From an uncultured Poribacteria bacterium (GTDB lineage Bacteria; Poribacteria; WGA-4E; WGA-3G), in the NCBI GenBank assembly GCA_951828515.1, contig OX639992.1:3450217-3514216 (forward strand): DNA of 64,000 bases, written 5' to 3'. This document shows positions 53,471 through 55,068 of this stretch, piece by piece. The translations under genes were made by a program, and so were the position numbers. Below the pieces are notes generated by a model. The model saw only the letters and a program-made list of their open reading frames with translations, did no database searches and was not told the DNA's origin. Within the stretch, counting starts at the first letter, position 1, and each line of letters starts with the position of its first letter.

Positions 53471-53904
53471 TTAGTTTCCTTTATTATGGTGAATTCTAAC
53501 AATATGGTAAAACCTATAAACAACGTGAGTTGAATAATAAAAAATCGGATGTAACCGTAGGTTGGATTGAACAAGAATGCATCAAAAACTGTCGAGAGCA
53601 ACCGACTTGAAGCATTCAAGAAACCTCATATTACCAAAATCCGAGTGAAACCCAACACATTCTTGCTGAAAGCGGTTGGAGCGTTGGGTTTCGCTATATT
53701 TCTCTACACCGCTGACCCATTGAAAGACAGAACTTCTATAGAAAACCCGTGAGGCTTCGGCTTTTACCCCTCAACCTTGGGGAAATACGCAGAAGGGGAA
53801 ATCCGTAGAAATACGCAGAAACACCCTATCAATACGCAGAAATACCCAAGCAAAAACTCCTACGAGAACTATATTCTAATACCGAAGCTGCTGTTGTAGG
53901 CACA
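53471..53904. other. Repeat-rich intergenic region upstream of the TonB receptor
   Basis: No gene supported. A TATGGTAAAACC end at 53503 is a MITE-end fragment. A hairpin AAACCCAACA...TGTTGGGTTT-type (GAAACCCAACAC at 53649 with GTTGGGTTTCGC at 53683) resembles 6016-6062. The stretch 53790-53850 repeats ATACGCAGAAA units and contains CCCAAGCAAAAACTCC. Confidence 0.55.
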
Positions 53905-54051
53905 GTTTGATGAAGATTAAAAAGTTAATTCGGTAATTTCTTAGGGCAGTCCGGTGCGGTTGCAAACCGTGAAGAAACACCCTATCAAAAACCCTACCGG
54001 GCCTGGGGGCGAATTAGAATTACCGATTTAAATAATTAAACTTCATCAAAC
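53905..54051. mobile_element. 147-bp element with long imperfect TIRs
   Basis: GTTTGATGAAGATTAAAAAG at the left end is the inverted complement, with mismatches, of the right-end arm ending CTTCATCAAAC (54041-54051); the match extends over about 40 bases (TCGGTAATT... ...AATTACCGA). No coding capacity; a different MITE family from the others here. Confidence 0.65.
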
Positions 54052-54088
54052 CTCACCTACCGGATTCCAGCTATCCTATGGTCATTTG

Positions 54089-54921
54089 GTAGGGTAGTCG
54101 TGTCCCCTCACGGAGACACAACCCCCTCCGAACGATGCGTGCGACTTTCACCGCACATCGCTCTCCAGTTCAATTTGACGTAAAAGATACGCTTTAGGTA
54201 GTGCTACCACTTTACTTCAGTCTTAATATTAAACCTACACCTTTTCGGCGATATTAGGTATTCTTAAGGCTATTTCAAGAATTGAACCTGATTGGGCTTT
54301 GCCAAAGGCTTTTTCCAATCTCCTCAACCCTGCCAACTTGCGTAAAAAAACTCTCGTTTACAAGTTAGTTTAGGTTCTGTCTAACTTCCTGTAAAGAGAC
54401 TTCATAACTCATGTAGGGTCGCCCTATATCCCGATAAACACTTATTGTGCCTTGTGCTATTTGTTCCAGTTTGTGAAAATACTTTTAGATTTTCACAATT
54501 GATGTAATAAAGAGGAGTTACACCCTATAGCACTACAACTCTTGCGTTTCGCTCAAGGCTGTTGTATTGGAAATTACGAGACTTACAGACGTTCAACTTT
54601 CGCTTACCCTTGTGAGTCCTGTCGGACGCTCCACTTTTGAACGTTAGCATTATTACTAATGCTAACTTCGCCTGTGTTCTTAGGAGTGCGCCATTTTTTC
54701 TTGCTTCCCACGTTAGCGTTTCCCCTAACGCAGTTAGAGTAAGACATACATTGCTGGACTCATGTAGAGGTATCATAACCTCATTCCCTTTACGCTTGTT
54801 AGACCGCACCCTCTTGCTTTCCACGCTGTCGTTTCCTATAGCGCAGTTAGAGTCAGACATACATTGTTGGGCTAATGTAGTGGATTTGCACCACATTCCC
54901 TATGCCCTTGTTAAACCGCAC
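54089..54921 (-). mobile_element. ORF-less group II intron
   Basis: The minus strand begins GTGCGGTTTAACAAGG (54921) and ends in CTACCCTAC (54089), as group II introns begin GTGYG and end AY. Domain V is canonical at 54163-54130, with an AGC triad, 34 nt length, 2-nt bulge and a GAAA-capped stem; domain VI follows. There is no intron-encoded reverse transcriptase. The 5' part exists in two diverged copies (GTGCGG starts at 54921 and 54809). It is inserted 4 bases after a stop codon of a sorting-domain relic. Confidence 0.8.
54130..54163 (-). ncRNA. Group II intron domain V
   Basis: On the minus strand GAGCGATGTGCGGTGAAAG then TCGCACGCATCGTTC. Lower stem GAGCGATG/CATCGTTC, 2-nt bulge, upper stem TGCG/CGCA and a GAAA tetraloop. 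This matches the consensus secondary structure in length and key positions. Confidence 0.85.
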
Positions 54922-54924
54922 ATA

Positions 54925-55068
54925 CTATTTCCGTATTAGCATCTTGCGTGTTGCCATGAAATTGCCTGCGGTGAATGTGTAAAAATAGAGACCACTTGCA
55001 ACAGGTTCACCCAGTTCATTTTTCCCATCCCGATACGCCGCACGACAGGTATATAACTGCTTGAGGAA
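54925..55068 (-). pseudogene. C-terminal sorting-domain relic (first)
   Basis: One frame reads ..QLYTCRAAYRDGKNELGEPV, ASGLYFYTFTAGNFMATRKM, LIRK then TAG. This pattern (G-EPVASGLYFYT ... TRKMLIRK) is the C-terminal strand-rich sorting or FlgD-like domain common to secreted proteins of type IX-like systems and Poribacteria. Upstream sequence is decayed in other frames. The stop is followed after 3 bases by the group II intron. Confidence 0.6.

Follow-up and report, generated by a model that had tools for sequence, protein, structure and literature searches.

A probable collapsed twintron with two 5′ domains in a group II intron of an uncultured Poribacteria bacterium

Why would a single group II intron begin twice? 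The window analyzed here, the whole 64,000-nt stretch of DNA from an uncultured Poribacteria bacterium, contains on its minus strand, from 54921 to 54089, an 833-nt group II intron in which no ORF could be recognised and two diverged 5′ domains stand head to tail before one 3′ end. Two 5′ ancestries, the outer boundaries, the fit of the inner junction, the poor fit to the host and a mosaic 3′ end can all be read from the sequence, and we consider the element very probably a collapsed twintron.

The element and its host site

Domains V and VI (DV and DVI) matched RF00029 at 54089-54165 (minus strand) with 67.2 bits over model positions 1-77 of 77, the sole Rfam match at gathering level within the window, and the intron ends in CTACCCTAC, as its relatives do. 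No reverse transcriptase (RT) was found in the intron interval, where the longest mechanical ORFs (123 aa on the minus and 100 aa on the plus strand) had no Pfam match. The initial annotation had described canonical DV and DVI without an RT, and these data agree with it. Positions of all features are given in Table 1.

Table 1. Features of the intron and its flanks (window coordinates)
Feature	Position	Strand	Basis or remark
5′ exon	54922..55041	-	final 38 codons of gene end (...GEPVASGLYFYTFTAGNFMATRKMLIRK); from translation
Stop TAG of 5′ exon gene end	54927-54925	-	intron begins 3 nt past stop
Host IBS1 position TAGTAT	54927-54922	-	from coordinates
Outer 5′ domain, putative intron A nt 1-112	54810..54921	-	repeat search and alignment
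IBS2-like GGAAA inside outer copy	54818..54822	-	pairs EBS2
IBS1-like AAGAGG, final 6 nt of outer copy, abuts inner GTGCG	54810..54815	-	pairs EBS1
Inner intron B, 721 nt, GTGCG to CTACCCTAC	54089..54809	-	predicted active unit; nt 1-461 82% to G032
EBS2 TTTCC	54569..54573	-	covariation column
EBS1 CCTCTT, in hairpin loop	54510..54515	-	covariation column
EBS3 T	54426..54426	-	covariation column
3′ segment of other ancestry, DV and DVI	54089..54169	-	matches G004/G047 introns; RF00029
3′ exon start CAAATGACCATAGGATAGCTGGAAT	54064..54088	-	conserved past stop codon in similar gene ends

When the host flanks were joined without the 833 nt, they aligned as one gapless block across the junction (64-85 columns) in eight of nine loci, which may be orthologues or may belong more widely to one family of gene ends; in the ninth, L205, the alignment has gaps near the junction. 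Matches to the joined flanks were present in 69 of the 72 genomes, and in G036 a different intron lies in the same flank, 6 nt further along. The uninterrupted flanks in relatives and the G036 intron together establish 54921 and 54089 as insertion boundaries, with the second 5′ domain inside them. A search of the window's own genome at 3 mismatches found no uninterrupted host site. The AAATG just past 54089 was considered as a continuation of an outer intron and rejected, being host flank that is conserved in relatives.

The gene upstream of the intron is probably a remnant, because its TAG does not terminate any ORF of at least 60 aa. Introns of the same family recur just past the stop of genes ending ...GEPVASG.YFYT...-like (window, G036, G012 and G016), and conservation among these gene ends extends to the approximately 25 nt past the stop. 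Directly downstream, window 53900-54060 is occupied by a repeat with 34-nt inverted arms (85% complementary) that has 46 matches in its own genome, itself and its own inverted arms counted; a 71-nt stretch of this region is found at 99% in G017. It looks like a small dispersed repeat element.

The two 5′ domains and their relatives

The outer 5′ domain opens with GTGCGGTTTAAC at 54921 and the inner one with GTGCGGTCTAAC at 54809. These are the two starts named in the initial annotation, and an independent repeat search found the same direct repeat (72-nt core, 83%, spacing 113). The annotation had put the divergence of the copies at roughly a quarter of positions; they are indeed diverged, and the figure is about 20% over 112 nt, with 89/112 bases identical (79.5%).

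Both copies have the GTGCG 5′ end and the conserved domain I elements, and both align to 16 relatives. Over these 18 sequences a 20-pair structure was formed in 92.1% of cells, and pairing fell to 38-50% when the partners were slid by 1-3 columns. The outer copy keeps 17/20 consensus pairs and the inner 18/20, the range in the 16 relatives being 16-20; in the CGCT/AGCG stem of the outer copy two mismatches lie above its four pairs. The stems keep pairing through paired changes, as had been noted from the two copies, and 17 of the 20 pairs have changed on both sides. None of 500 shuffles was as high, a result that is not a probability, since the sequences share ancestry and the structure came from this very alignment. 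The paired changes had been taken as a sign of structural selection on both copies. They do speak for constraint in two lineages; that the outer copy is still under selection does not follow from them.

A covariance model of the 5′ domain, R1, built from 18 sequences with the two window copies among them, matches both copies over positions 1-126. The R1 scan, run with strict filters by which weak matches may be lost, gave at least 49 matches in 30 of the 72 genomes of the order; three of the matches are in the own genome. Among the matches listed, the window pair is the only tandem or close pair; on the other two contigs with two R1 matches, these are 20 kb and 113 kb apart.

Matching intron DNA was found in 29 of 97 genomes, the own genome included. 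One of them, G032 (JAJDTM010000038.1, a Candidatus Poribacteria MAG), is placed in the same genus as the window genome, and its intron (L056:484-2911) encodes a 623-aa protein with RVT_1, GIIM and HNH. This intron resembles the inner intron (82% over inner nt 1-461, 91% in the 5′ domain) and differs from the window element in having one 5′ domain, an encoded RT and a different DV-DVI; its EBS1, ATAAGG, fits its own exon CCTTAT. The inner 5′ domain is 91.1% identical to that of G032 and 79.5% to the outer copy, and the outer is 84.8% identical to G032 and 80.0% to G042. By these identities the two copies derive from two different introns and not from one 5′ domain duplicated. Elsewhere in the family, one intron (L045, G052:C6) apparently lies inside a tRNA gene, with GCGCCTGTAGCTCAGTGGATTAG as its 5′ exon and a 3′ exon that is tRNA-like by eye.

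Exon-binding sites, 3′ end and proposed history

To locate exon-binding sites, the final bases of the exon were compared with the first 560 nt of the intron in 19 relatives and the inner copy, with G-U allowed and counts made per alignment column; the relatives include near-copies with like exons (the two G047 introns; G036 and G012), and the counts are partly non-independent. The EBS1 column pairs 6/6 with the own exon in 8/19 relatives and a neighbouring hairpin does so in four more (12/19). At neither column was EBS1 found in the other 7/19, one of which, G012, pairs 5/6. For EBS2, one column pairs 5/5 with the exon at -13 to -9 in 10/19. The EBS3 column holds the Watson-Crick partner of the first 3′-exon base in 15/15 relatives with a clear 3′ end (L052, L018, L027 and L034, which lack one, were left out), the runner-up column reaching 11/15.

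At the inner junction these columns fit throughout. With the putative next base of intron A, the site reads GGAAA-gc-AAGAGG|A, and AAGAGG pairs with EBS1 6/6 and GGAAA with EBS2 5/5, all Watson-Crick. Such an 11/11 Watson-Crick fit occurs once in 127,972 positions on both window strands, at the inner GTGCG, and two places in the window reach 11 with G-U allowed. EBS3 U fits the A following the domain-I site in 20/20 aligned rows, the base presumed for intron A. The host site TAGTAT|C pairs with EBS1 2/6 and with EBS2 3/5 (5/11 in total), and EBS3 U opposes C there; against the exons of the 19 relatives the window EBS1 and EBS2 reach at most 6/11. For the 833-nt unit, EBS-IBS pairing with the flanking exons was thus not found. 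The inner unit has it on its 5′ side (6/6, 5/5) and not on its present 3′ side. GGAAA also occurs in the host exon, lying two bases closer to the junction than IBS2 usually does, and a shifted EBS2 pairing with it is possible. A nested or twintron-like arrangement had been suggested in the initial annotation, with loss of the downstream half of a tandem insertion as the alternative; that EBS1 and EBS2 fit the outer copy at its end, and not the host, supports this.

The 3′ end points to a further ancestry. The last 80 nt match the G047 and G004 introns at 78/80 and 77/80 and the G032 intron at 53/80; the last 41 nt are identical to the G004/G047 introns and match the G016 intron at 21/41. Judged from these matches, the 3′ end of the window intron is a chimera with another intron lineage, the crossover in the 3′ half falling at about inner nt 440 to 640. 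Identical DVI with differing 5′ halves is seen in L048, L049, L051 and the window, and again in L055 and L056, which suggests that 3′ ends are often exchanged in this intron family.

We propose the following history. Intron A would have occupied a position three bases past the stop codon in a common gene end (TAGTAT|C). Intron B, a relative with EBS1, EBS2 and EBS3 that fit the conserved family domain I element GGAAAGCAAGAGG|A, would have entered domain I of A after A nt 112, presumably by reverse splicing. The 3′ halves of the two introns, being similar, would then have recombined, this order of events being likewise presumed, with loss of the last part of B and of A from nt 113 to a point in its 3′ half. 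The identity of the lost base A113 is presumed from the aligned rows, and the EBS3 fit depends on it. In the product, A 1-112 would be followed by B, beginning at its 5′ end, and by a 3′ end with which the original 3′ boundary of A is restored.

The G016 intron (L047), although most of its 5′ half is missing, gives an idea of intron A. It likewise lies three bases past the TAG of a gene end of this kind (TAGTTT|GTGCGGTTTAAC), and its first 12 nt are those of the outer copy. Its EBS1, ATACTA, pairs 6/6 with the window TAGTAT and 5/6 with its own exon, and its EBS3 G fits the window host C. Intron A would be expected to have had these features. Recombination between inner and outer 3′ halves would leave the outer boundary restored by a 3′ end from another lineage. 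The present 3′ end may have come from A, although the G016 relative of A has a different DVI (21/41), and B may already have been a mosaic.

An inner intron of a twintron should start at an EBS-fitted site in the outer intron, and the window one does, with 11/11 at 54810/54809. The outer intron does not resume past the inner 3′ end, where host flank directly follows 54089, and the element is therefore a derivative of a twintron and not a complete one. An uncollapsed A/B/A twintron was not found in the 72 genomes: CTACYYTACAAATGGCG (one mismatch) gave 7 matches in 6 of them, with no DV in the preceding 90 nt, and these are chance matches because a reversed control pattern gave more (about two dozen). 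By exact matching, the inner junction pattern was present in the window only. With up to 3 mismatches allowed, AAATAGTWTGTGCGGTTTAAC was matched 18 times in 15/72 genomes, with 0 mismatches only in the window and G016.

Could the two copies have arisen otherwise? They lie head to tail, are nearly equal in length (spacing 112-113) and have both conserved their stems, as they would after a local tandem duplication in which slippage or unequal crossing over doubled the first 112 nt and the copies later diverged within structural constraints. Such a duplication has little probability and is strongly disfavoured: the inner copy is nearer to the intron of another species (91.1%) than to the outer copy (79.5%), and neither the fit of EBS1 and EBS2 at the copy boundary (11/11) rather than at the host exon (5/11) nor the misfit of EBS3 to the host is explained by it. 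The GTGCG start of both copies and their 17 and 18 of 20 consensus pairs might also suggest a maintained device, with two 5′ splice sites serving alternative splicing in a mirror image of the Clostridium tetani 3′ repeats. However, the single EBS1 present fits the inner site only (6/6 vs 2/6), the arrangement was seen once among at least 49 5′-domain matches, and a location past the stop codon yields no protein variant; we regard this idea as highly improbable.

Our analysis rests on assembled sequence, in which an assembly artefact might have brought two intron copies together. We hardly expect this, as the genome is one contig of 5.85 Mb, a real site is regained when the outer boundaries are joined, and the place of the join coincides exactly with an EBS-fitted junction. 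Intron DNA was matched elsewhere in the own genome at two places only, both in the 3′ region and neither in the outer or inner 5′ domain; therefore no second copy was available for mis-joining. A collapsed twintron thus remains much the most probable reading. If its RNA splices, the inner 5′ site (54810/54809) is predicted to be used, and the 112-nt remnant would stay in the 3′ UTR.

Present mobility from the genome's own resources is unlikely because there appears to be no intact RT in the genome. RVT_1 (PF00078) had no match there, and a search with the G032 protein gave a weak match of 31 residues and a C-terminal RT remnant (C1:4535950-4536900) interrupted by a TGA and a TAG. The RT remnant belongs to a G032-type intron remnant (L055, own genome C1:4535846-4536900), an RT part followed by DV, whose DVI and first 3′ flank resemble those of G032; the G032 intron follows a transposase-like ORF.

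The target of B is widespread in the family. In 10/19 relatives the domain-I target fits the EBS1 of B 6/6 with G-U allowed; among them is the other complete intron of the own genome, with one G-U. The inner intron's own copy of the target is AAGAAA, 4/6 with its own EBS1, and two of the 19 relatives are as low (4/6); AAGAGG (6/6) is kept in G032, G036 and G012. On this one case it is conceivable, though rather doubtful, that B represents a lineage specialised for homing into the family's domain-I element and avoiding itself by target loss. If true, this would be an intron that parasitises introns in their catalytic scaffold, with self-avoidance.

Comparison with known systems

The window preserves the product of a process outlined in review, intron-into-intron homing followed by recombinational loss. 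The history is legible base by base, the EBS giving the insertion site of the survivor and the outer boundary the place of the host intron. In this way the effective 5′ splice site of a group II intron could move by 112 nt, and the intron could acquire a 3′ end from another lineage. Scans built on a single 5′ and a single 3′ end for each intron would misinterpret such elements, and a mismatch between EBS and exon is a cheap finder of more of them. In the accessible parts of the related literature (including PMC4476101, PMC8919778 and PMC8637638), with subscription journals mostly outside, no collapsed product with two 5′ domains is described, which is weak evidence of absence.

Clostridium tetani resembles the window in having repeated intron parts at one locus. 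The repeated units there are reportedly on the 3′ side; in the window the repeat is on the 5′ side, with one fitting splice site. The Clostridium tetani intron is alternatively spliced (PMC3919590).

In the Trichodesmium twintron the inner intron lies in domain I of the outer, as in the window; however, it is a complete twintron in a conserved gene, with stepwise splicing shown (PMC4649490), whereas the window outer intron is incomplete and splicing of the element is a prediction. Thermosynechococcus elongatus shares with the window a related ORF-less intron that enters a conserved family site by EBS/IBS pairing, but its site is in DIV between two ORF start codons and the outer introns are whole (PMC2882425). 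The window site is in domain I, and the outer intron was cut to 112 nt plus at most the 3′ end.

Of all these systems we turn last to Methanosarcina acetivorans. Its nested group II introns were reportedly described by Dai & Zimmerly in 2003. Introns of this species home into group II introns and the copies are lost again by homologous recombination (PMC4424553). Intron-in-intron homing, recombinational loss and flanks without a coding role are thus common to both cases; arrays of up to five nested introns persist in M. acetivorans (PMC4424553), whereas one insertion is proposed for the window, and there a single intron remains, which has one 3′ end and two 5′ domains. Both twintrons and their recombinational loss are already known, and the window element is a variant of them.
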